In this document: positions 11,701 to 40,480 of the stretch, piece after piece
Layout of the letters: each line of letters opens with the position of its first letter
Position numbering within the stretch: position 1 is the first letter of the stretch
Assembly: GCA_011319805.1 (NCBI GenBank)
Contig: SJRY01000146.1
Span: 186,001-250,000, forward strand
Direction of reading: 5' to 3'
Origin: Macrocybe gigantea
Taxonomy: Eukaryota > Basidiomycota > Agaricomycetes > Agaricales > Callistosporiaceae
Length of the DNA: 64,000 bases
Notes under the pieces: model-generated
The model's database searches: none
The model's input: the letters and a program-made list of their open reading frames with translations, nothing else
What the model was told of the DNA's origin: nothing
Made by a program: the position numbers and the translations under genes

Positions 11701-12279
11701 ATGAACCAAATACGAAAGGAAGCAAATGCTGTGCTGCAATATGTACAAATATGAGCCAAAGACAATTACGATGCAAGATGAAAACCCACCCGTGAATACA
11801 AGAAAGGGGATAGAGTATGGCTAGAGGCCACCAATATCACAGTCAATCGACCATCAAAGAAGTTATCGGCACTCCAATATGGACCATTCAAGGTGGTTGA
11901 AAAGAAAGGAGCCTCGGCATATCGCCTGGAACTCCCAGCATCATGGCAGCTGATACACCCCGTGTTCAAAGAAACACTGCTCATGCCTTACAAAGGACCC
12001 CATTTCAAGATACAAGAGCGACCATCACCACCACCTCCTGAAATCATAAATGATGAAGAAGAGTATGAGATAGAAGAGATCCTAAAAAGGAAGAAACAAG
12101 GGAGGGGGACGCTATTCCTGGTCAAATGGAAAGGATACGGATACGAAGAGAACACATGGATCAAAGAGAAGGAACTGGGGAATGCGCAGCAAGCTCTAGA
12201 CCACTTCCTAAAGAAGACTGCGAACCAGGATAAAAGGATCATGACAAGAGGGAAGAAGACCAAAAATCGCACTTCATGA
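8770..12279 (+). pseudogene. pol: pol of the chromovirus: protease, RT, RNase H, integrase, chromodomain; nine TGA stops
   Basis: One frame runs throughout. Protease: VDSGADR (8863-8883). Reverse transcriptase: KSPYAAPCFF to IIYMDDIII (YMDD near 9820). RNase H: VETDASGYAIG and TDHKNLSYF. Integrase: zinc-binding CETCQ, a DLIGPLPSS core, and STAYHPQTDGQAERSHQ. Chromodomain: IEEILKRKK, LVKWKGYGYEENTW (about 12070-12200). Stops at 9439, 9856, 10255, 10828, 11104, 11311, 11353, 11752 and 11779 are all TGA, and at each the family pattern suggests Arg (CGA). The final TGA at 12277 is the natural end. This copy cannot make Pol. Confidence 0.93.
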
Positions 12280-22494: not shown

Positions 22495-24340
<1,846 letters not shown>

Positions 24341-25434
24341 GCCAGTCCCCCAAACTGGGCCGGAATTACCGCATATAGCTACCCCGGTATTGTAGTACTT
24401 CGTACTCTACAGAGACACAAGGGCGCCACTCCTTGTTTGACGCTGAAGGGCAACCGGAAGGTGGAAGTAGGGTTGAGTTGTCGCCGGAGATCGTACGCCC
24501 GCACTGTTGGGGTCCAGTGACGTCTGTCAATAGGCCGCGATCACCTGTCGCTGACTTCCCCGAGCCATCGCCATCTGAACGTCATCCCGACGTGCCGTAT
24601 CTTGGGGTTCCGGACCTCGACTTATGCACTGGACTTCGTAGATTATCCTTCATCTTTCAGATCACCCACTTCCCTCGAGACGTTTTTCTTTTTTTTATCT
24701 ATGCACTACATCGGTACTCATACCCAACGACGTTTGTAACGCTCTCGAGTCTAATCGAGCCCCATCTGTTGAACACCGCGCGAACAACGCGCCTCGTCTT
24801 CAAGTTCTCGTTGATCGACTCTTGCGGGATTTTCTCACAAACCTTTCACTACAACCAAATTTACGGCCACGAGGTGGTTTTTCTCCCTTCGACACCAGCC
24901 TGACATACAGGCTTCAAGATAGGAGCGTGCGGGACTTTTTCTACTAGTTCATTGCTTTCATATTTAGGGTAAGCGACTATCATACCTACTGCGAACGAGA
25001 CTGCCATTCAGAGCAATCTACGCGCTCAAGCAGCCTAGGCATGAATGTGACCAACGTCCCCTCGTCCTCCCTTTGCGGCCTGTCGGGGTCTGACTGTTCC
25101 GTCGTTTCCGTGGGGGCGGTTTGTAACTCGCCATCATCCAACTTGATGTTCAAAAAAAAGTGAGAGAAGTACCCCAACACTCCGGACTGAACTAAATAGA
25201 GCAGGACAAGTGCGTGGATTGATAGGGAGCAAGTAAGAGATGTAAGTGAAAGCACGGAGGGGGAAAGAAGGGGGTGAGATAAGGGAAGGCATGATCCAAG
25301 GGAACTCTCCTCCAGGCATCCATATATGCCATAACCGAACCCAAAATGCTATGCATACACCAACTGCTGCAATTCGTCGAGCAGAGTCATGGTGCATGCA
25401 GCCCATGTTCGATTTTTAGCAGGCAATCGCACCT
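24341..25434. other. About 1.1 kb without a supported gene
   Basis: A 156-codon plus frame (24433-24903) has ordinary composition but starts without ATG and shows no domain. Pyrimidine-rich tracts and short simple repeats are present. It separates the truncated helicase from the 3' end of the next gene. Confidence 0.45.
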
Positions 25435-27179
25435 GCATGACGTTTTCTTGCTGTTCTAATGACTCTTTTGAATAAATAGCTGCGTAAATCAACCAGATCA
25501 CTTACTGCCCTTGTCAATCCATCCTGAGAATGGTAACGCTTCCCATCCGCCCTTTCCGGCCACTTTGACCCACTTATGACGCATTTCTGGTGGTGTAAGT
25601 CGAAATTCCGCGCAACAAAGAGGATTAGTGCATAGAAAGTGAATGTAATCATAGCACCCCTTGTTGTTCTTGGGCCATTTGTCCCTGAGCGATTCCATGG
25701 CGCAACAGACCAGGCATTGGCCCTTTGGGCAATCAAACCCAAAGGGTCGTTTGTCTGCATGGTGCCAGATGTATTCCGTCATCTTGACGCCATCCATGGA
25801 ATTACCAGGATCGGAATGGAGAAGAACCACAGACGTCAGCGCTCCAAGGCCCGTATGCTCAGCAACGATATTTTTGAAGCCACGTTCGAGGCTCATGCCT
25901 TGAAGAAAAATGCCCTGGACCACATCGACAAGGAAGGTGCCCATTGCAGCGCCAATCATTTGCGGCGTCGTGAATGCGATCAGATCATTTATGACGCCAC
26001 TGCATAAATGAAAGGATTTGAGCATAAGGGAGCCTAATAATATGCAATAGCCCTACCTTGAGATGTATTCCTTTATTTTATCAAGTGAGTCACCATGCAA
26101 ATATGGTCCTCCGCACACCGAAAGATACAGGAGTGTGCGCTTGGCTGTCAAAATAGAACACAACTGTTCGGGAAGTAGATGTTGGAGTAGCTAAAGAAAA
26201 ATTCAGCTTTCAGTCTTTTCTGCTGCAAAGCATGTAGCTCACCATAAAAGCGTCATCTTGAGCACTAAGGTTAGGCGCATAATGCCACTCTGCAGCATGA
26301 GGATCGGAATGTGTCTGAATGACGAGCATAACACAGTCAAAACTAAGGTGATATATGAGCCAATGTATGGTATTTCAATGCAGCACTGACCGGGTGAGGT
26401 CCTCACAGAGCTTATCAATATCTTGCGCGTATCTTTTCCTTCCTCGTGCCGTTCCAAAGTTGAAGGCAATAGTGCGTGCATACAAGCGATTGCTTATTGC
26501 ATCCTCATGACGGTACCAGGATTTGACGCTGTGGTATAAGACATCCGATGCATCAGGATGGAGACCCTCGAGTACTATTGTGACCAAGGCCAAGGGAGTG
26601 CCCGTGATGTTGTCGAAAGAAGTGCGGCCGCGAGAGGTGAAACGGATGACGAAATTTGGATTGTAGGGTTCCAGAGATGCATCTTTGACCAAGGCCTATA
26701 TTAACCTCGTCAGTCTAGGCCGTCCATGTTTGAGAATAACTTACCGGATAAGGCTTCCAAACATGATCAACCTTTTGTTTTTTTGCCTCATCTCTCCTGC
26801 GCCTCATCCTGGTAACCCAGCAAGCCGGGCAAATGGCTTTTGCATCCTTGGCCACTGGGCGGGGAACAGGAACGCAACTGGCGCACATGACTTTGGGGCA
26901 AAAATCGCACTCCAGTACATCTCCTCCATCACCGCAACCTCCACACCACTAGAAAAGCATGGCATTAGCTGAGTCTTATTAAAAGTGATAAATACTTGCA
27001 ATTCGAGGATTTTTCTCAGTGGCCTCTGGTAACTTAGCCTGAGACTGTGCGATTCTGGCTGATTTACGTGCTTTCTGAGCAGCTGGGACACCCGTGGTTA
27101 CATCGGAAGGATCCCCTAGAGGCTTCTTGGGCGCAGTTGCTCCAGTGCTCTTCTTAGCGGTTTGACGAGTGCGGGCCAT
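25435..27179 (-). CDS. Histone-H3-tail-like N terminus + PHD-like zinc finger + caspase/CHAT-like domain (about 477 aa)
   Basis: Exons on the minus strand: 27179-27000, 26948-26745, 26695-26391, 26342-26243, 26190-26057, 25999-25506, and a short last exon near 25434. Introns are 48-57 bp; the first is GC-AG. Residues 1-20 (MARTRQTAKKSTGATAPKKP) match the H3 tail closely, and KARKSAR repeats an A-R-K-S motif. Residues 62-103 hold four CxxC pairs with PHD spacing (CGGC, CDFC, CASC, CPAC), Cys replacing the PHD His. Residues 170-340 resemble a caspase fold: strand-His (VMLVIQTHSDP, H241) and strand-Cys (LLYLSVCGGP, C289). A Cys-rich tail (CPKGQCLVCC) may bind zinc. No stops or frameshifts. Likely nuclear; substrate unknown. 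Confidence 0.75.
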
Positions 27180-27596
27180 AGGGGAGCAGGTTATAAACGT
27201 TGGGTTGCAGTTGGATTCTCATTTGTTAAAGGGTTTTTATACGTGCTACTGGCCTACCATGACTTTTTGGGCACAAGAGGCCCAACGATATGTCGTCTAT
27301 TTTACGTGTATCATAGCTAAAATCATCGCACCGAGCATGTCAGATCAAGAGCGAAGGTTGGCCCTTCCCTTGGCACAGTCTGACAGGTGGCCGGCATCAA
27401 TCCGAAGCGCATAGCCATGCCTCATGCAACCACCCACTGGCGGTGCTGGGCCGAAGCATGCCACGCAACAATGACGCAAAGGGTATGAACAGCCCTTCGC
27501 ATCACGCCCATGGGTTGATGGTTGCAATGCAATGTAGCATGGGGGACATGGACCGTCCACCCTCACAGCATCATTATTGACCAATGACGCTGGGCC
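27180..27596. other. Upstream region of the H3-mimic gene, no gene seen
   Basis: Contains the promoter region of the minus-strand gene. No clear TATA box. Degenerate GCATG/CACGCC-rich sequence related to the repeats that follow begins near 27410. Confidence 0.4.
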
Positions 27597-28146
27597 ACAA
27601 GATGCCCCGAAGGGATGCACGGAAAGCATGGGCGGCTTTCCCCACGGCGCTGCCATTGACAGACCACGCCGGGCATATGAAAATGGCACTGCAACACCAC
27701 ATAGAGAGCATGGACAACTCCCTTCAACGCGCCGCCATGGACAGACGGCGCGGGGTGATAGTTACAGCGCTATGCGGCCGATCTGATGGAGATGAATTCA
27801 AGTGAGCTCGTAATCCCGACGTGATGCGTAGAGCCAGGGGTGACTCATTCACACCAGTCAAGGATCAGCAGGCACACTTGCCTCCAACATGCCTGCATGA
27901 GAAGCATGGGCAGCTTCCCTCATGGTGCTGTCATGGACCGACATCACCAGGCGGACAAAAACGGCACGCAAACACCACGTGGAAAGCATTGACAACTCTC
28001 CGCACCACGCCGCAATGGACAAGCGGCGCAGGGTGATGGCTGCGGTGCAATGCAGCCGATCTGATAGACATCAAACAAGTCAGCCCAGAATCCAACCCCT
28101 GATCCAATGCGTAGAGCCAGGGGTGACTCATTCACACTAGTCAAGG
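27597..28146. repeat. Two degenerate copies of a 283-bp repeat, each with two 52-bp subunits
   Basis: GTAGAGCCAGGGGTGACTCA occurs at 27828 and again at 28111, 283 bp apart. Within each unit a block of the type AAGCATGGACAACTCCC...ATGGACAGACGGCGCGGG occurs twice (near 27626, 27707, 27902, 27985). Short open frames across it are by-products. Confidence 0.6.
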
Positions 28147-28389
28147 GTTGGAGTTCATGATCAAGTTAGTTGGAGGGCACGCCCACTCTGAAGAGGCTGG
28201 AAGGAGAAGCATGGTGAGCGTTGAATGCAAGCATGGATGACGTGGCACGGATGTCAGCTAGAAATTATCAACATAGTCACATGCTTCAACCCTGCATCAA
28301 TCTCGCTTATCTTGCCTGCGTACTGATGGCGAGGGGGACTTTTTTGATCTCTGCTAATCTAGGGGAAAAGATGGAGTATGAAGGCAAAG

Positions 28390-29330
28390 AAGAAGGAAAA
28401 ACGCAAAGAAACATACCTTTGAATGTCGCCGCTGGACGACAACGATGACGACGCAGGCGATGCATGGAGGGGGCACTCAAGCTGACGTGGTGGGAAGGGT
28501 GTAGGCCGTGAGCATGGGGCACGGGAGTCTAAGCTGGAATGGCAATGCCAGCATTAAGAAAAGGTATGAGGGAGAAACAGAAAAGGGGCTTACATTGATA
28601 GTAGAAGAAAGCGTGAATGCTGATGAGGCCGACATAATCTCCAGACGAGCACAGAAAACCGGACAGGGTTGTCCTTGCGATGAACGAAGAGCTGGCGTGA
28701 ATGCGAGTCTCTCAGCTACCCGTCGCGTCGGACATGGCTTCCGGCGAGGAAGCAACGGATCCATGTCTGTGTTGAAAAGGCTAACTAATCGGGATGGGGG
28801 TGCAGGGGATGAGGAAATCTTGAGTCGACGAGAAAAATCGTGATAAAATCAGAAGAACTCACTGTTGAACACCGTTAGAGACGACACTAATGCTGACGTG
28901 AAGAGCTGCGTATCACAACGCCGAATGCCTATGGCGACGTGAGGCGTTGGTGCATGGAGTGGTGAGTGTTGGAGGCGGCGGGTGAGGGGACGATGGACGG
29001 AGGGAGTGTTGGACGGGGTGAGGGGGCGGGGCGATGGGGGATGCTGAGACGCGATGAGAAGAAAGAAAAAAGAAGAACTCACTTTTGAAGGTCGCTGCTT
29101 GGACGACGCCGATGCCTACGTGAAGAGTGGGGAGGCGGGATTGGAGGCGGTGTAGCAAGGAGAGTCGAAGCTGTGACGCGGTGAGAAGACGAGAAAGAAA
29201 AAAAAAAAAAAAAGAAAAAGAACATACCTTGGAAGAGTGAGTGCTGGAGGACACCGATGGCGACGTGGAAGGCGCTGCAGGGGAATGTTGGAACCAGCAT
29301 GGCGGCAAGGGGAGGCATCTGACGCGACAA
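28390..29330 (-). repeat. Tandem array whose units look like small exon-intron pairs
   Basis: On the minus strand each unit ends in a splice-donor-like GTGAGTTC or GTATGTT (near 28419, 28862, 29083, 29229), followed by a pyrimidine tract and, in at least two units, a CAG or TCAG acceptor. The exon-like parts repeat motifs such as LHVGIGVVQAATF and FHVAIGVLQHSLF and A/G-rich runs. Unit spacing varies (about 145-220 bp). It may be the repeat domain of a decayed gene or a minisatellite that includes splice sites. Confidence 0.45.
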
Positions 29331-30204
29331 TGCCAGCCGGAGGGCCTGGGACGGCGGGGCGTGGGTAGGGACTTGGGAAGACAATGACAGCGCGCCAGTC
29401 ATCGTCGTTCGTCATCTCCGCTATCGGCTCGGCGGGGCTGGTGGGTGGCCTGGGCAGGGAGGGGAAAGGGGAGACGACAACGACGACGCACCGGTCATCG
29501 TCGTCTCCGTTGGGCATGGCTGGGGGAGTGGTCAGCGGAGGAAACAGTGAGAGATCAAAAAGATCATGCTGCCGATGACTCACCTTAGCTCTCCGAGATG
29601 ACGAGAAAGTGAAGGGGAGAGAAAGAGATACGCTAGAAGTTGGAGGTCGACAAACAAGGGCCGTTATCGTCCCCGAGCTTGTCGTCGCCATCATCTCATC
29701 CCGCTCTCTGCCCGCCACTGGCCCATCACGCCCGGCTGAGGGCAGTGGCGCGTCAACGATGAGGTTTCACTGTCTCCCTCCGCCCCCACCAACTTCCCTC
29801 GCGTCACCGGCCAGACGACGATGACGGGCAGTCGTACCACCTCCCAGCCTCCAGCACTGCCTAGCTCCCAAGACGGGGAGACGACGATGCAAGCCGACAA
29901 TGTTCGATGACGCCCATCATCTGCCAATGCTGCCACATAGCACTGAACTGCGGCGTGCATTCCATGTCCGATACATGACGCTCGAACAGACACACGAGCA
30001 AGTGCAGATCATGATCGCTCGTATTGACATGGCCGACCGTATTGCAACACCGAAAGCGGAAAACACGACGACGAGTGACTGACGCGCCCTTGTTGCTTCG
30101 CACATTCAATCCTGATTCTAGTCATGTACATAATAACTCCTCACCTAATACAGAGCCTGCCCCTATCCAATTGAATCAAGCCGCGTCCCAAAACCCTAAG
30201 AAAC
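29331..30204. other. Spacer, no supported gene
   Basis: GC-rich, with simple repeats of GACGACG type near 29470. A short plus frame near 29900-30080 (ELRRAFHVRYMTLEQTHEQV) may be a Gag remnant of the Ty3 fragment that follows. Confidence 0.35.
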
Positions 30205-31190
30205 ATGAACTCTGACGTGTCGATGGGAGCGAGCCCTGGCGCGACCAACTCAAACTCACCCCAGCTCAAGATTAAGGTCCAAACCGCAGATACAGGGGAG
30301 ATCTTTACCATCAAGGCCCTTCTCGACTCTCGAGTGGCGGGCCTTATTCATGGACCCCGCCTTTTTAAAGAAACACCGCATCTCAACACGCCCCCTCACC
30401 CGACCGCAATGCAGACGGCACCCCCTGACGAGGACGGCATGATCTGTGGAGTCATCGATCTAGTAATGCGCTACCAAGACCACTCGGAACACGCTGTCTT
30501 TGCCGCCACAGGCTTCGGGCACCAGGAAATGATCTTGTGCTTCCCTTGGCTGAAACTACGCAAACCCGACATCGATTGGAAGGAGGGAATGGTCAAGATC
30601 AACCGATGTGAACGCGCCTGCCACATCTGTGCACGAGAGGCCATGGAAGAGTGCACACAGGTGCCACCAGACCAAGGTAGCTACCTGCATGTGCCATGCA
30701 GGCCCTGCGCCACACCTAAGCACAGGCGAGGACAAGGACGAACAGCTGGCAATCGGCTGACCCCGAAGAACTGACTGATGAAATCATTGAGTTAGAGTGA
30801 CTGGCCTGCTGAGTCCATCCATGCGACCGCCAACACCTCGCAACGGCTAGCAGTTGCACACGAGTAAGAAGTAGCATACGCGCCATTTGTGACGCCATCC
30901 CTGGCCATCCCTGACCACTTGGCACGAATTCGAGGATATATTCTCGAAGGTGGCATTCGATACTGATGTGATGGGACTACGTGATCGAACGAGTCGATCT
31001 TGCATGGCAGGGTATCTCGATGACACGACAGAATCACACACCTCATTCTGGATCGCTTCCAAGAGCACAAGCTCTACCTCAAGTGGGAAAAATGCGAGTT
31101 CGAATGCACCGTCAACGTTCACGACAGACAGTTTGGGAATTCTGAGCCGAGGAGAGGAAAGGAAGGAGCTGAAGTAAGTACTTTTTCTGC
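30205..31190 (+). pseudogene. Remnant of another Ty3/gypsy pol: protease and RT fragments
   Basis: The first frame (30205-30774) matches a retroviral-type protease followed by its strand-rich tail: KALLDSRVAGLIHG where D-S-G is expected, VMRYQDHSEHAVFAATG, PDIDWKEGMVKINRC. Further on, HEFEDIFSK (near 30920) and RFQEHKLYLKWEKCEFE plus GILSRGEERKE (31050-31165) belong to the region before and after the RT palm. The palm with its catalytic aspartates has been deleted. The family differs from the complete chromovirus. Confidence 0.72.
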
Positions 31191-32524
31191 CAAACAAAAG
31201 GCTCAAATGAGGGACACCTATCGTAACGTAGACGTACAGGTCTTGAAATACTCCACAGAACTCAGAAAGGAGAGGGGTGGGAGTAGGAGATTGACCCTTT
31301 CACTTCGACCACCCCTAAAACGGTCACATGACCAAGTGAGTGCTCGCACTTGATCTTGTGACTTGCAATGGAGGTCACAATTAGCCCGTGGTTCAAGTAA
31401 AACGTTCCATTCAGAGGCGCGTCACAGCCACACCGAAGCAGAAAATCCAATTCCCTTGGCCTCCTCCCATATGATGTCATCCAAAAACTCGCCGCCGCTG
31501 TTCAACCTCCTGAAATACCACCGGCCGAAATTCCGTATAGCCGACGTTGCGCGGGGGAGCTTGGACAACGCACCACCTTTGAGTGAGCAGTCGAAACGGT
31601 GGGCATCATCTTTCATCTCGCTTCGTCGCGTTTAGAGTCTAGCAGCTAATCACCCGATTCATTGCCCTCCCCCTGGCACAATCGCCTGATTCTGCGTCCT
31701 GGTTTGCAGCACCTCGCGGCGTACCGCCCGCCAGAGTCGCGTATAACCGCAAAGTGTACGAGAAGGCTAACAGCTTAGGGTTAGGGCGACAGACCTGTTC
31801 TCGGCGAATAAGCCGTGCATCCGAATCACGAATCTGGTCTGTGCGACACATCTCGATCATCAAGTCATCACACGAGCGTTTTTCGTGCACTTGGGATCGA
31901 AGGTGTTTCTCCAAGTCGCGGTTAGTGATGTTCTGCGCGTAGCCACTCAACAGTCACACAAGAGCCTGATCTTCACGTTGCTGACGAGAGCCCTGAGAGT
32001 CACTGGTTCGGCGCAAGGCCTGCGAAAAAAGTGTGACACGAAAAGTGGACTTTCCCGATTTAGATGTAGCTCCGCGTATCATCCATTTCCCTTATCTCAT
32101 CAATCGATTCAACGTTCCGGAGGTCTACACTATATGGATTGTAAGGATAAATTATTAATGTCTTTTGTAAAGGAGAGCGGCGCTTGCCCATTCTGCCTGC
32201 TCTGCAGGCAGTTTGGAGATATTCACAATACGACGCGTCGACGCGACACGATAAATTGGATTAGTCAGCAGATTGATCGTATTCTGGCCGCCCTCGCTCT
32301 TCGTTCACTTAGATACTCATGCACAAGCATACAGAAAACGAAACTGAGTTTGATTATGAAGTATTAGCCCAATACCTTCAAATCCTTCGGAATGGATTTT
32401 CTCTCTTGGTCCTCAAACTCGAGATATCAGAGGATAAAGGTCTTCGGAACACAGTTTTGGGAGATTGAACACCGATAACGAAAATCCATACCGAACATTT
32501 TCTTCTACGGTACATTTAGAGTTA
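31191..32524. other. About 1.3 kb without a supported gene
   Basis: Only short frames. One (32100-32360) has a CPFCLLC motif but no context. The end of the preceding Ty3 remnant and possible LTR debris may lie here. Confidence 0.4.
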
Positions 32525-32547
32525 CAGTCGGATGTCTCATAATGCAT
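32525..32547 (+). repeat. Left TIR of the pogo element
   Basis: 23 bp beginning CAGTCGGATGTCTCATAATG; perfect match to the reverse complement of 33834-33856. Confidence 0.92.
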
Positions 32548-32639
32548 AACGTCGGGGCGGCCTCAAACCCAATGCATTATGAGATATATTCCGTACCAGA
32601 GTACTTAAATACAGGCAAATAATTACATAACATTCGGAT

Positions 32640-33562
32640 TCTCCGGGCCGTCCCGGGTGAAGTAGGTGTCAATGGCTGTTTGTTTCGCGTTCTGAAGCTG
32701 AGTGCGATGCAAATGAGCAACGAAATGTCGAAGATGCTGTGCAACGCGGTTTTTTGGACTTTCCGATGTAGACAGGATCCAGTTTATCGCTTCCATCGGC
32801 ATTACAACCGAACATAATCGTAATACGGAATTTCGCCTTCTTCTTGCCAGGAAGCTTCTTCGTGGCCAGTCCTTGATCAGGGCGTGAATACGGGAACAGT
32901 CCGGTCTCGTTGACGTTGTACCAATCTCGCTTTGGATATGATGCGAGAATCCCAGCAATTCAACAATGTTCGGCTTCGACAGCAGCAAGGTCGACAGACC
33001 CTGCCTCGCCATGACATTTCTGGCTGTGAATCTTGTGGGCTGCATAGAACTTGGCGACCCATCCAGTCCCTGTCAGTCGTTCTTCTTCTGGAATGTTGAA
33101 TTTCGTCTCGAAACGAGCTCACTTCTCACGCAACATTGCCCCGGTCACTGTCTCTCCCTTACTCTCCATCTGTTTGACCCAAAGATAGAGTGCATGCTCA
33201 ACGTCGGGTCTTGTCATGATGCGAGCACATTTCGAGGATAACGCGTTTGCATATGACCCGGCACGCTCTTCCAGGGCCTCTCGTTCCTTCAGCTTCCGAG
33301 ACAGTGTCGACTGATTGAACGTCAAAACTCCCTCGGATCGTGTTTTGAAATGAGCAACAACCTCTTGTTGTGACATTGTTGGGTGATCATCCATGAAGGC
33401 AAAGACTGTCAGCCAGTCATTCAGGGTTAAGTTCTCGCGTGAAGTCTTTGCGATTGGTTTTGCAGAGGTCTTGGGCGCATTTTTGACAACTTTGGGGCGA
33501 GGCTGATGAACATAGTGTTGAGGCTTGCCTCGGGGCTTGCGATGCAGCTCAGAGGGATCCAT
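32640..33562 (-). pseudogene. pogo/CENP-B-type transposase, truncated and frameshifted
   Basis: ATG at 33562 starts MDPSELHRKPRGK. A first helix-turn-helix (LTLNDWLTVFAFMDDHPTMS) and a CENP-B-like second domain (RPDVEHALYLWVKQMES) are visible. A shift near 33120 leads to GWVAKFYAAHKIHSQ, then the start of the DDE domain, WYNVNETGLFP, where the usual first catalytic Asp is Asn. Another shift near 32750 precedes VAHLHRTQLQNAK. The rest of the DDE domain is missing. Inactive. Confidence 0.82.
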
Positions 33563-33833
33563 TACAGACGTCTCGACACAGTACTACCGATATAACATGC
33601 AATCCAGCTTTGAAATGTGGGCAGAAACCGCTCTGTAATGGTATGTGGCCACTTCAATTCCATATTCGGCCAATGTGAGTGGTGCAGCCATTGTCCTTGC
33701 ATTGTCCACTGATGCATAATCTGGCCACAAGCCCGATGCATTATGCATTATGCAATATCGTCCCTTTTCCCCGCGCCCCACGACGGTTCCCGGCCATTGC
33801 CCATGCAGAATGAGATTTATGCATTACCGGCTA

Positions 33834-33856
33834 ATGCATTATGAGACATCCGACTG
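33834..33856 (-). repeat. Right TIR of the pogo element
   Basis: Reverse complement of the left TIR, ending ACATCCGACTG before the flanking TA. Confidence 0.92.
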
Positions 33857-34016
33857 TATTTCGGTCACTCCAACATTTTACAAATATGCCTGTATGATGC
33901 TGCGCAAACTCTGGGCAACTCGCCATGCATGCGTCGGAGTTTCAATTGGCGGTTGCGCCGCACCAGAGTCACGGATAATGGCCTCGAGCAACACGTGCAC
34001 ATCAAAAGCGCCTTCA
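33857..34016. other. Short spacer
   Basis: No gene seen between the pogo element and the next minus-strand frame. Confidence 0.4.
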
Positions 34017-34403
34017 GACTGAGATTGTATCTCTCTGCTTCGATTCTAGAAAAGAACCATGACAACGAGTGGGAGGCGAATGATCTAGGAAGCAGCAGAC
34101 TTTGAACGTCGGTCTGTTCTTGGGTATGTCTGGCAGAGCATCATGTACATATATGCGCATCATCGGGATCGCACGGGCCTCACCATCTCCATCATCTGCC
34201 TTGGGTTCGGCGTCAGTATCCTCTTGGGTCACTTGCTCGTCCAACTCGATAGAATCATCGTGAGAGATAATTTCTTCAACCGTCTGCATAATCTGATGAG
34301 CGTATTTGAGCAGGCGTTTATTGACGCTGGAATCTTCAAGCGTCGGCATGTGCTGGAGAGAGCGTGCAGCCTTTTTCAATAGAGCAAGCGCCTCATCGGA
34401 CAT
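34017..34403 (-). CDS. Small acidic hypothetical protein (about 129 aa)
   Basis: ATG at 34403 (MSDEALALLKKAARSLQHMP). The first 60 residues look helical (SVNKRLLKYAHQIMQTVEEI), followed by an acidic, low-complexity part (DTDAEPKADDGDGE). Splicing near 34100 is possible and would change the C terminus. It lies 82 bp downstream of the disrupted minus-strand gene and may be a separate gene or its last exon. No domain recognised. Confidence 0.4.
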
Positions 34404-34484
34404 AGTGGTCAAAGCAAAAGGTGATAACGTTTATTTGTGCTTCCAAAGAAAAACAAGAAACAGAGGGCCAAACAATTGTGATAT

Positions 34485-35752
34485 TTACTCGTCATCGTAT
34501 TCATCCGACAAGTCAGATTCGGCAGCCTCCTCGATCAAAACTGAACGAATCTCCTGACCGATAGGGGTTTTCCATATGTCGGTGGAAGGATTGGCCATTT
34601 CTTCGTAGGCTTCGTCAAGAGCGCCGAGGCCCTTGTCTGGATATTCCTCAAGGACACTCCCTCCCAAGATGTGGACGCGGAGACAGCGAATGAAATGAAT
34701 ACGCAGATAGTCCACTTGCGCAGTGGAGGCAAAGGGAAGGCGTGATGGTAGCCTGATACCACCAGGTAGGTCTTGAAAGATAACAACACGAAGGTTGTCC
34801 TGCACGGTGTTCAGTTATTCAACCCCACTGATAGTGAGATAAACGCACATCTACATCTACACCAAACGCGTTATCAGAAAAGATCTAAGGTAGGGCTCAC
34901 AGAAAACCCGCACACATCACGGGACGTGACTGGCTGTGACCAGGGTTGCAAAAGGGACGGAAACGCGTCATTAGATGGGGGCGTGGACGCGCCTGGACGC
35001 GCCTAATAGATCGAATATAGCTATAAAACATGTTCTACGTTGTCGTATGAGATCAGAAAGGGTATAAAGTAATTCTAAATGAGTTGAACTTCGAAGTTGG
35101 TCACTATTTGGTTGCTAAACACGAAGATCATCAACAGCATCGAGCTCCGCGAGAATTGAGTTAGGAAGCACTCGATGACCGCGGTACTTTTTTCCCGCCC
35201 ACGCAGCTTGTCTTGCATCCAATCCTTTGTGGTACGCGTCCATAAACCGTCTAGATCGACGAGCAAACCTGTTGCAAGGAGGAAGTGAGTTTTCTCTCGA
35301 GATAATCACTGATCTTCACGTCTTCATTTTCCTTATTGGCCCCATCATTTTCTCGACAGCGCTTAGTCCGATTGGTCCTTCTCGTGTTCGAAGTGGCCCA
35401 GTTCTTCAGGTTCTTTAGGTTACGAAGAGGGCGCAAAGGTATGAAGACGTGTCGAGATGGTTTTTGACGTGTTCAGTATACCATAATTTTAATGGCACAC
35501 ATAATTTTCGAAATTTGAAAAATCTGTCCGCACAGTTCGATGCATTTTTACCATCTCTAGAAGTCTGCGCGAACCGATTTTTGATTTCTATTGATTTACA
35601 AGTGCCATTAAAGATTTATTGGAGATCCCCGCCAAATGTAACGCTCTGTCACTCTTTGATCATGTGATGTGCGCGTGTTTTCTGTGAGCCCTACCTTATG
35701 AGAGTTTGATGAAAATTCGGCAAGTGTGCGAGCCAGTTCAGCTGAGTGTGTG
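34485..35752 (-). pseudogene. Unrecognised host gene disrupted by the 809-bp TIR element
   Basis: The 3' part (34485 to about 34802) reads DNLRVVIFQDLPGGIRLPSR and YLRIHFIRCLRVHILGG and ends in an acidic tail (ESDLSDEYDDE). Upstream, across a likely intron ending GTGCAG, the frame NSHRSFLITRL is cut by the TIR element. Beyond the element the same frame continues as AELARTLAEFSS (35700-35745). Removing the element and one TA joins the two halves in phase, which shows the insertion hit an exon. Family not recognised. Confidence 0.6.
34888..35696. mobile_element. Non-autonomous TIR element, copy 2 (809 bp), TA duplication
   Basis: Ends AGGTAGGGCTCACAGAAAAC and its inverse, with TA at 34886-34887 and 35697-35698. 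Same length as copy 1 at 1868-2676 and nearly identical; most differences are C/T or G/A. The element has no complete transposase and must be moved in trans. Confidence 0.88.
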
Positions 35753-35916: not shown

Positions 35917-38380
35917 ATGCCGTCGACCCCGCCACCTGACAATCGCGGTGCATCGCAGATTAAGTCCACGCCCGCCCATCGCGGCTCTGGCTCTGCCCAC
36001 AGCTCCTTTGTTAAACACACGTGAGTGGTGACCACATCGCGATGCTGCGTGTTGAACTTGATTCCAGCTATACGGAGATGCGGGACCCACTTTTCGACGA
36101 TCTCAAAGAGCATGTGACATGTGAGGTCTTAGCGGTCTTGAAAGCCTTCCTGAAGCGATGTTTGGAGGAGGAACAACGCGACGGCGTGAATCTGGAGGAG
36201 CTTTTGCAGCAATGTTGGGATGCCGTAGTGAATGCATTGAGGGATGACGAAGACGCTCGTGGAAGGCTCTTGGAGCATCTTCAATCCTAGTACGTCGTTC
36301 CGCTTCATCCCCATCCATCTATCAGCTAAAGAACATTCCCAGTTGTGGGGAAACAAACGAAACGGCCAAATACACACCCTTCGCCGAGTTCTGCAACACC
36401 TTTCTTGACCTATTGCGCGACATTCGTATCGGCGGTCTACGTGAACCTTCCCCACTAGACATTGAATTCTTTCGAAACGACCCAAGGCGGGTTGTTGGCA
36501 ATTACGGGTTTGGTCTGTCACCCGACTGTGGCATCAGGAGGTCAAGCCCAGATCGCGATGAATCCAAAGATGACGATGATGATCGAGTGCAAGCAAAACG
36601 GAGACGAACCATGGTTTCCACGCAGCCGGATAGAGAGCCGTTTCAGCAGCCATGCAAACCTCTGTCGTGGGACGTCTTTCTCTCGACGGTGGAGGGCAAA
36701 TTGGGCACTCGTAGGGCTATCGATTCTCTCTGCATTGATGCAAAAGAAATCAAGGAAATCCTTCCGCAAGCACACAGGGATGCACTGAAAGCTTACGAGG
36801 AAATGCCACAAGAGTTCGATCGGATGTCACAACCGTTTGATCATAGCAACGCAGGTAAGTTTGACCACGTCTTGATTATATCGCTTTGACAATCAAGCAG
36901 GAAGCATCCGTACCAGCAGCAAAAGGAAGGCAGAAACATCGACCGCAATGGTGTCGACGGCGGAGAGACCCCCAATGCTGCAGAACGCCAAATATGCCGC
37001 GGCGCGCCTCTCTTCTTCGCCCGCGATTGCACATGTGATCAATATCATCTTCAAAGGTATGCCTTCTTTATGTACTTTCGTTCTTTTTCTCCCGAACTCT
37101 TGACATATTTCTGCTTTGGTAGGCACGGTAATCTATCTGTGGTATTACGACAGCGAATCGTCCATCCAGTCGTACGGCCTTGATTTCGTCGACAACCTCC
37201 CCCACTTCGGCATTCTACTCCTTGCATTTCAACGATTTACCGAAGCAGACTGGGGCATCATATCTGAGCTTCGTGATACTCTTTCCGAGCATTCCATTCC
37301 TCTCGCCTTTCCCTCCACCCTACCCAACGAAAGAATCACAATTGATAGGAAGCGACTACTTCGTGGCTCCCATGCGCTATGCGGGCGCCGGACTTGCGTC
37401 TATGAAGCCCGAAAGGAGGCCAATGACACCAATGCCAATGATCTGGTCATCAAAATCTACTTTCCGGAGCGCGCCAGGGTTAGCGAGGTGGAGATTATCG
37501 CAGAAGCATCAAAATGGGAAGAAGACCGCTATATACGCGGCCATTTGCCACATGTCGTCTGCCATCGGGATTTTGGCGAGTTTGGTACCGATCTCATCCG
37601 CCGTGACCTAGGCCTGCTGAATGATGCGGATTCGGTGGGTTCACGGATCCCCCGGATTATTGTTTTCGACAAGTACGAAAACATAGTGATGGTGGCTGAA
37701 AAAGATGAGGCGAACTTTGAGGCACACTTTTGGGACCTCTTCCGATGTTCGTGCCATTTTATTCTCTCTTGTCATGCATCAGCCAATCTCCCGCAGGTCA
37801 TTATCGTCTTTGGCTTCGTGGGGTGGAACACGGTGATATCAGTCTCAGCAATTTGATGTGGGACCCACATACGGGACAGGCAAAGCTAAACGACTTTGAC
37901 CTTGCCCGCCTACGCGAACGACCGGTCAACATTGGCCGCGCTCGAACGGGCACAATGGCCTTCATGGCGTACGACTTGCTTTGCGACGCCGGACTTGCAG
38001 GTCGCTTCCCGAGATTGTATCGGCATGATGCCGAATCATTCCTCTGGGTTTTCCTTTGGGTTCTCGCTAGGTATAAAGGTGGTAAAGAGGTCGACCGACA
38101 TTTCCAATCGTTTCACGCCGCATCATATGAAGTCTGCTACAAGGAGAAGTTGGCTTTCATGCAGCCCGCCAAAAGCGTCAAAACCCATAATCAAGAGCTC
38201 TGGGAGTGCATCCGTGGTGTATTGCTCGAGTTGGGGAACAAGCATCGCAAATTATATGATTCTTACGTTGACACTCTGCCAGCCTGGAACGAGGATCCAA
38301 AGGAGATGATAGACTGGCTGAGGGAACAACATCAACACCTAGACAAAGCATTAAATGACTTTGACCTAACGTTGGGCTAA
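35917..38380 (+). CDS. FunK1-type protein kinase (733 aa)
   Basis: Six exons: 35917-36020, 36068-36289, 36343-36854, 36901-37056, 37123-37746, 37797-38380; introns 46-66 bp. The N-terminal half has a helical part and an acidic/basic linker (DRDESKDDDDDRVQAKRRR). The kinase half shows LVIKIYFPER (likely ATP-site Lys), HGDISLSNLMW (residues 551-561, catalytic loop with HGD for HRD), LNDFDLARL (DFD574 for DFG) and GTMAFMAYDLL. This fits the basidiomycete-expanded FunK1 family (Ser/Thr kinase-like, role mostly unknown). The gene is intact. The last intron has a weak GTTCGT donor. It stands alone between transposons. Confidence 0.9.
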
Positions 38381-38482
38381 TTTACATAACCTTGCGGTGC
38401 ATGAGTTGGGATTTTATTCGTGTACCCTTTCTTTTTCTGAATGAATAGAGTGTATTTGCAGCAGTGTTGTGCCAGTCGACGT

Positions 38483-38975
38483 CTTAGATTATTAAGACTT
38501 GCTAGGGTGGACTAGGGTGGAAAATTCTGGCCGCTAGGGTGAGCTAGGATGGGCCTTTTGGATGGCTAGGATGAGCTAGGATGGCTTTTTGCACTGCTAG
38601 GATGAGCTAGGATGAGTGGTTCCTGTAGCTAGGATGAGCTAGAACATGTACTCTAGAACATGTACTCTAGAATAATATAGACTGTTTCTTTGACTGCTAG
38701 ACAGCTTTTCTGGCAGTACATCTGCTCTATGACTTTCTGTTACTCTGCGTTACCTTGGCTTCCCTGCCATTACCTTGACTTACATTTGCTCATGCATTTT
38801 GGTGGCCGTCTTAGACGCCTGTGATTTGACTTGATGACTTGCATAGCATGCTTGAATCTGTGGCCTCATAGACGCCATTGATTTCAGGTGCCATGGCAGT
38901 CATATGATCCATGGCGTCTATGAGGCCTTGAATTTCTGATGCTCCATGGCCTTGCAGACAATATGGATCATGTGA
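38483..38975 (+). repeat. Long direct repeat R1 (left of the Crypton)
   Basis: Starts CTTAGATTATTAAGACTTGC, with internal GGATGAGCTA tandem units, and ends near CATGGATCATGTGA equivalents. It is repeated in the same orientation at 44375-44810 with small indels, 5892 bp apart. The last part carries TAGACGCC motifs in both orientations. Confidence 0.8.
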
Positions 38976-39479
38976 ATGGCATGACTCAAGAAATCCATGG
39001 CGCCTATGAGGCCATGGATTTCTGGTATCATTTTGGTCATGTGCTCCATGGCCTCGCAGACGCCTTTGATTTCTGGTGCTGGCCTCGTAAACACTATTGA
39101 TATTAGCCAGTTGCTGAATTTGACTATAGAGGTCTTGAGTTCGAATCCTGGTAGCTGCATGCATGCACGTATACCGTCATAGACGCCATTGCTTTCTGTG
39201 AGAAATTTACGCCCCGTTGGCGGGGGTGGGAACGACCGCGTGATCGCCGATCGGTAACGTGAGGCCAGGTGATGGGCGGAGTTCCGGCATCCCCGGCATG
39301 GGCGGGTGCCGCTGATGTAATGCTGCCGTTTCGTCACCGTTTCGCGGCGCGCTGGGGCCTTGGTACAAACAGCAGAATATATGGACCCATAGGTGCGCGT
39401 GGGGGCCCCATGCAGCCCGCTCGTCGGGCGTCGACGTGGGGACGTGGACAGCTCGATATGCACGAGGGAGCATCAGCGC
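38976..39479. other. Spacer with TAGACGCC-type motifs, no gene
   Basis: GGCGCCTATGAGGCC and CATAGACGCCATTG forms recur (near 38998, 39055, 39176). Short frames are not supported. Confidence 0.45.
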
Positions 39480-40480
39480 ATCGAAACTCCAATACATCTT
39501 TTAGGAACGATACTGGTAAATAGTACATGAGTGAGGTGTGACCCCATCAACCTCCCCATATCTCGACAACACCATGCCGCACCGTAACGCCCCTTGTACG
39601 CCCGTGTTCTGCATGCAAAATAGGTCGAGTTTGAGTTCGGGATCATGAGGAGATAGGCAGAACTCACCGAGATGGGGCTGTGGCTCTCCGTCACTCCACC
39701 CATGTCCCATATCTCCTCTCAAATGACGCACCGCGCAACAGCGCCGATTGCACGCCAGCAATTGTTGCCCAAACGATTGCACGCCAGCAATTGTTGCCCA
39801 AATACAGGCTAGTTTCGAGGCTAGGACCATGAAAAAATATGCACGACTCACTGAGATGGGGCTGTCGTTCTCCATGATGCCACGACCTCACATGTCATAT
39901 CTCTGCAACGGCGCACCGCGTGGCAGCGCCAATTGTACACCTGGATTCCTCGTCAAAAATAGGTCAGGTTGGAGCCCAGGACCACGGGGGAATGTGCAGG
40001 ACTCATCGAGCGTCGAGATGCACCTCTGTGTCGCCATTAGCCCATTCACCTCCCATAGCTCCATGACGACGCATCACGCGGCAACAGGCATTGCACGCCC
40101 GTAATCTACGTCAAAAAATAGGTCGAGTTTAAGCCCATGATCATGAGAAACAATGCAGGACTCACCGAGGCAAGCTGGGGTGCTCATCAGCCCTCCCCTC
40201 CACCTCATCTCCACAACAACATGTCGCGCGGCAACAGGCGTTGCACGCCCGTAATCTACGTCGGAAATAGGTCACGTTGGAGTTGAGGATCATGAGGAAC
40301 AATGCACAAGTCACTGAAGCAAGCTGTGGTGCTGTGCTCATCCCCCCTCCCCCATCTACCTCCCATATCTCCACAATGACGCATCGCGCGGCAGCGGCCG
40401 ATGTACGCCCGTAATCTACGTTGAAAATAGGTCAAGTTTAAGCCCAGGATCATGAGTAACAATGCAGCAGTCACCGTGAT
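39480..40480 (-). repeat. Tandem array of about six 150-170-bp units with splice-like borders
   Basis: A block of the type AAAATAGGTCGAGTTT recurs near 39618, 39790, 39956, 40115, 40262 and 40424. On the minus strand each unit has a GTGAGTCC-like donor, a stretch of about 60-70 bp and an acceptor-like ACGTAG before ATTACGGGCGTGCAA, so units resemble one exon plus one intron. A 28-bp direct duplication lies near 39765-39800. No complete gene can be built. Confidence 0.6.

Follow-up and report, generated by a model that had tools for sequence, protein, structure and literature searches.

The minus strand of the window (the whole stretch of 64,000 nucleotides of Macrocybe gigantea DNA analysed here) carries a gene predicted to encode a protein of 474 residues, in which an N-terminal near-copy of the histone H3 tail is joined, in the same chain, to a PHD-type cysteine finger. 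Judged from its sequence, this protein is best read as a candidate H3 mimic that would be hard to methylate and could be bound by its own finger or by other H3 readers. More specifically, we favour, while granting it somewhat less than an even chance, a chromatin-associated protein that repeats the H3 tail in its first ~20 residues and whose own finger takes that tail as a ligand. The six exons of the gene, all in phase, are separated by introns of 51, 49, 48, 52 and 57 nt (introns 1 to 5); intron 1 opens with GCAAGT and the other four with GT, and all five close with AG. The features of the locus are as follows:

27234..27241, minus strand: TATA-like box TATAAAAA, 55-62 nt 5' of the ATG, from reading of the sequence
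25498..27179, minus strand: complete gene model with six exons, 474 codons and a stop, introns of 48-57 nt
27000..27179, minus strand: exon 1, residues 1-60, with the H3-like tail (2-21) and ARKS (37-40)
27117..27176, minus strand: codons 2-21, 14 of 20 residues as in H3 1-20 by residue comparison
26949..26999, minus strand: intron 1 of GC-AG type (GCAAGT...TTTCTAG), junctions without difference in three other copies of the gene
26745..26948, minus strand: exon 2, residues 61-128, with the C8 PHD-type finger
26391..26695, minus strand: exon 3, without a recognised domain in Pfam and PDB searches
26243..26342, minus strand: exon 4, THSD motif from residue 240
26057..26190, minus strand: exon 5, SVCGG motif from residue 287
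25498..25999, minus strand: exon 6, coding for the C terminus, which includes another Cys-rich stretch (about residues 396 to 440)

The initial annotation had proposed a gene at 25435..27179 with all exons open and in phase. The six exons do join in frame, intron 1 by way of its GC-AG junction, and the start at 27179 is retained, but the gene model stops at 25498 and no exon end is placed at 25435. This ATG is favoured by the TATA-like box and by an in-frame TGA 42 nt upstream; as no in-frame ATG lies between the two, exon 1 holds no earlier in-frame start, and an unseen upstream exon is possible. A possible alternative donor (GGCA/GTAAGT) near 25503, just before the stop codon, makes the C terminus uncertain. 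An intact finger requires the GC-AG junction (GCAAGT...TAG) at intron 1; four bases further on, a GT donor might be joined in frame to a poor GAG acceptor (found by eye), with loss of C62.

Residues 2-21, ARTRQTAKKSTGATAPKKPL, coincide with H3 1-20 at 14 of 20 positions, and the 13 of 19 previously reported for this N terminus are the same match without Leu21. Numbered without the initiator Met, the tail reads A1-R2-T3-R4-Q5-T6-A7-K8-K9-S10-T11-G12, with A1, R2, T3 and K9 as in H3, and with Arg in place of K4 and Lys in place of R8. The ARKS site that had also been pointed out is present (by eye) at residues 37-40, downstream of the H3-like stretch. The match lies far beyond chance for the composition of the tail: in 2,000,000 composition-preserving shuffles the highest count was 12, reached once, and none attained 13, while the analytic probability of at least 14 matches is about 3e-9. 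Among 8,207 distinct post-ATG peptides from the window and the loci compared, four score 14, namely this gene and the starts of three H3 genes, and the next best scores 8. A phmmer search of the PDB with the full protein matched the tail to H3 peptides at E 0.017. At the level of sequence, the resemblance to the H3 tail is thus genuine and notable. It does not extend to the histone core: Pfam reports no histone family in the 474 residues. Searching the genome with the 45-residue tail retrieved only the four copies of this gene, a weak result as true H3 genes were missed too. Family searches of the same genome listed 34 PHD, 29 CHAT and 6 C14 matches, of which the scan of ATG starts covered the loci of 30, 8 and 0, respectively; no further H3-like start was found at those 30 PHD and 8 CHAT loci.

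The genome holds six H3-type places, one on C233, three on C40 (one of which looks degenerate), one on C120 and one on C125, and codons for the tail were compared with three of them (C233, one C40 gene and C120), with expected values based on 2,016 codons taken from family matches. Codon identity with the C233 gene holds at 10 of the 14 residues in common, against 4.1 expected (P 0.001 before correction, near 0.006 once the choice among six places is allowed for); for the C40 gene it holds at 4 of 14 (expected 3.8) and for the C120 gene at 4 of 10 (expected 2.8). At H3 positions 4, 8, 10 and 17 the codons disagree in every base, which fits poorly with simple descent from H3. Upstream DNA is not shared with the three H3 loci, the best match, at E 0.033, being 24 nt long and located right at the start codon (others E 0.12 or worse). 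Resting on 14 codons and on the best of six H3 places, this comparison is suggestive only of a tail descended from, or shaped on, an H3 gene. Codons vary between the H3 genes themselves (C233:945074; C40:387k, 408k and 411k; C120; C125); ARKTA replaces ARKSA in the C233 gene and in two of the C40 genes, and the start of the gene at C40:411k looks degenerate.

The finger, C62-x2-C65-x8-C74-x2-C77-x4-C82-x2-C85-x14-C100-x2-C103, has eight ligands with the spacing of a PHD finger, just as had been claimed for residues 62-103. The fifth ligand is Cys82 rather than the His of the C4HC3 pattern, and the Pfam PHD profile does not report the finger (no family at E ≤ 10). Its PHD-like nature is borne out by the closest solved structures, which are PHD fingers. 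In phmmer searches of the PDB, the full protein matched CHD4 through the finger at E 3e-4, and the finger alone matched CHD4 (E 5.6e-5), PHF21A (4.6e-4), TRIM24 (7e-4) and CHD5 (0.0013) and, further down, PHF12 (0.0014), AIRE (0.0042) and TRIM33 (0.0056); with residues 61-88 alone, TRIM33 and TRIM24 came out on top (E about 0.005). Several of these fingers read the unmodified H3 N terminus. The fungal finger shares with those of CHD4, PHF21A, TRIM24/33 and AIRE the spacing and a C-x2-C...GG-[DE]-x-L-x-C core, and differs from them in the Cys ligand for His, the lack of a Trp before the last CxxC and the silence of the Pfam PHD model. The ADD finger of ATRX also has Cys at the place of the His; its match is weak (E about 0.03) and covers only part of the fungal finger (residues 62-86). 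AlphaFold models were too poor to use, with a pLDDT of 57 for exon 2 alone (without an alignment) and of 51 for exons 1 and 2 joined by the translated intron.

In BAZ2B, D1950 and D1953 hold R2 of the H3 tail and D1941 contacts K4, and mutation of D1950 is reported to cut H3 binding 100-fold (PMC5663869). D75 of the fungal finger aligns by eye with BAZ2B D1950, and Pro78 stands at the place of D1953, so that the R2 pocket appears half kept in this alignment. D67 and D70 lie in the loop before D75, and no acidic residue directly precedes C62. We count D75 in favour of an H3-binding finger, and the Cys for His, the lack of an acidic residue before C62, the Pro at the D1953 place, the missing Trp and the silent Pfam PHD model against it.

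A caspase-like domain had also been proposed for this protein. THSD (240) and SVCGG (287) do follow one another as the His and Cys of a caspase-like pair would, and similar THSD and CGG motifs are known from agaricomycete protein families. The 474 residues matched no Pfam family of any kind at E ≤ 10; a PDB search with the C-terminal part returned a single match at E 0.7, not named a peptidase; and, when compared as a profile with eight CHAT sequences from the genome, the protein scored 20.4, against 20.3 for the best of five shuffles, a comparison in which the single-sequence profile is weak and which indicates lack of support rather than disproof. The protease claim is thus unsupported by Pfam, the PDB or the CHAT profile, and is left out of our main reading.

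Four copies of the gene, identical throughout the exon-1 protein, are found in the genome: that of the window, on C146, and three on C310, the splice junctions of intron 1 being unchanged in the latter. The C310 copy near 160 kb is complete, making two complete copies with that of the window; the alignment of the copy near 87 kb ends within exon 3, at 26460, and that of the copy near 56 kb at 26696, the exon 3 border, other DNA following the break in both. The window and the 160 kb copy have in common a block that spans roughly 24212 to 34883 and contains a small inversion (24361-24589); the pair could be allelic, one in each of two nuclei, or could stem from a duplication. Their coding regions differ by five silent changes and one Ile/Val exchange, an excess of silent changes over the neutral expectation of 25% (P 0.005), although six differences are few. 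From these sequences, the complete pair look as if under selection. The initial verdict that the gene looks functional accordingly finds mild support in this bias and in the TATA-like box just upstream. Residues 129-474 revealed no diverged paralogue in the same genome, matching only near-identical copies at E ≤ 1 (five candidates in a first look). No homologue was found in the protein collection for the full protein (E ≤ 1e-3), for exon 6 alone (E ≤ 10) or for residues 1-128 (E ≤ 10), which says little on mushrooms as the collection is presumed to be poor in fungi.

The surrounding DNA is rich in repeats. Just upstream of the gene lie two direct copies, about 77% alike (27624-27863 and 27902-28146), and the same pair accompanies the C310 gene copies. 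An extra ~1.3 kb at 32524-33857 is absent from the C310 copy, has a 95% relative on C304 and encodes a Tc5-type transposase DNA-binding domain (33122-33583); a MITE-like repeat of ~813 bp with inverted ends of ~35 nt (34885-35698) recurs, with 75-100% identity, in about nine other locations. Elsewhere in the window are a helicase-like piece recognised from motifs by eye (22743-24323; repeats on C310 at 97% and C111 at 91%), a retroelement end with Tf2-like SH3 and chromodomain (11785-12276) and a piece of a fungal-type protein kinase (37724-38377; PF17667, E 1.5e-15). With the kinase region 36000-39500 as the query, no C310 match was listed. The kinase piece, like the short introns of the gene, agrees with a fungal origin of the DNA.

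Our reading of the protein as a blank, H3-like ligand may be laid out as follows. A tail probably derived from, or shaped on, an H3 gene would, upon removal of the initiator Met as in H3, expose A1-R2-T3-R4-Q5-T6-A7-K8-K9-S10-T11-G12. A1, R2 and T3, the positions used by readers of unmodified H3, would be kept; Arg for K4 would make the tail a poor substrate for K4 methyltransferases, and Lys for R8 probably a poor one for K9 methyltransferases of the G9a/SUV39 type, as the specificity of these enzymes implies. The finger might then hold the tail as a standing ligand, either in cis across a linker of about 40 residues or between two chains, until the H3 tails of nucleosomes displace it. The ARKS at 37-40, still a possible methylation site, is a misfit with a purely unmodifiable decoy. 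Binding of the tail by the finger, or competition of the tail with H3, both put forward in the initial annotation, are plausible. We infer expression, Met removal, nuclear localization, binding and regulation, and the mechanism is a well-motivated guess. Doubtful, in our estimation, is a more ambitious version in which a PHD-type reader acquired, by fusion, an H3 tail from a histone gene that was later changed at K4 and R8 so as to escape marking by writers. Such a reader would carry a permanent blank-H3 pseudo-ligand in cis, would open only where nucleosomal H3 outcompetes it, and would gate a C-terminal, possibly cysteine-peptidase-like, activity.

Histone mimicry is already known, and so is a PHD finger modulated by a histone-like segment within the same protein. 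In BAZ2B, a histone-mimicking linker lowers the binding of the same protein's PHD finger to H3 (PMC5663869). The fungal protein similarly combines an H3-like basic stretch with a PHD-type finger, but the mimic of BAZ2B is a lysine-rich linker inside the protein that resembles H3 only in a general way, whereas here a true N terminus matches residue by residue; the self-interaction was measured in BAZ2B and is only inferred here. Among the matches listed from the open-access literature, no title or abstract opening described an H3-tailed PHD protein in fungi, which is a weak absence.

Rather unlikely, although the closest competitor of a tail held by its own finger, is a tail acting in trans as a histone mimic for other chromatin proteins (readers, demethylases, or HP1 after methylation of the ARKS or KKS lysines), which it would recruit or for which it would compete with H3, the finger doing other work. 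The H3-like match runs beyond the first residues, which are those mainly held by PHD fingers, into K9-S-T-G and APKKPL, and is followed by ARKS, as such a role might lead one to expect. Against it, K4R and R8K take away features that the main writers use, and a suitable finger lies in the same chain. A precedent is offered by PAF15, a non-histone protein whose true N terminus, VRTK, is H3-like and is read by the PHD finger of UHRF1 (PMC12704277, PMC8034647); there, however, tail and finger belong to two separate proteins, while here they share one chain and the match reaches residue 20.

The remaining explanations dispense with mimicry. The 5' end of an H3 gene might have been joined on as a relic or convenience, supplying a start and a basic tail. 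The ten codons identical to those of the C233 gene speak for this; yet idle drift would not leave ten codons intact and alter four others in every base, no upstream DNA is common with the three H3 loci, and the exon-1 protein is the same in all four copies, recent as these are. We regard this as improbable, and slightly more so that the gene is a duplicate in decay, set in repeat-rich DNA, from which no protein is made. The four copies lie in recent duplications, and two of them break off at or within exon 3 and give way to other DNA; together with the unusual GC donor and the lack of a homologue in the protein collection, this would suit such a fate, but two copies are intact, five of their six coding differences are silent and the splice junctions are unchanged. 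That a basic N terminus rich in Ala, Thr, Lys and Arg came to resemble H3 by chance is very improbable: the composition lends itself to it, but 2 million shuffles of that composition gave at most 12 of 20.

Should the tail indeed be a ligand of the protein's own finger, this gene would provide a simple natural test of whether a pseudo-ligand can switch readers. By uniting a near-copy of the H3 tail at its N terminus with a reader-type finger, the protein would also exemplify a histone tail enlisted for regulation.
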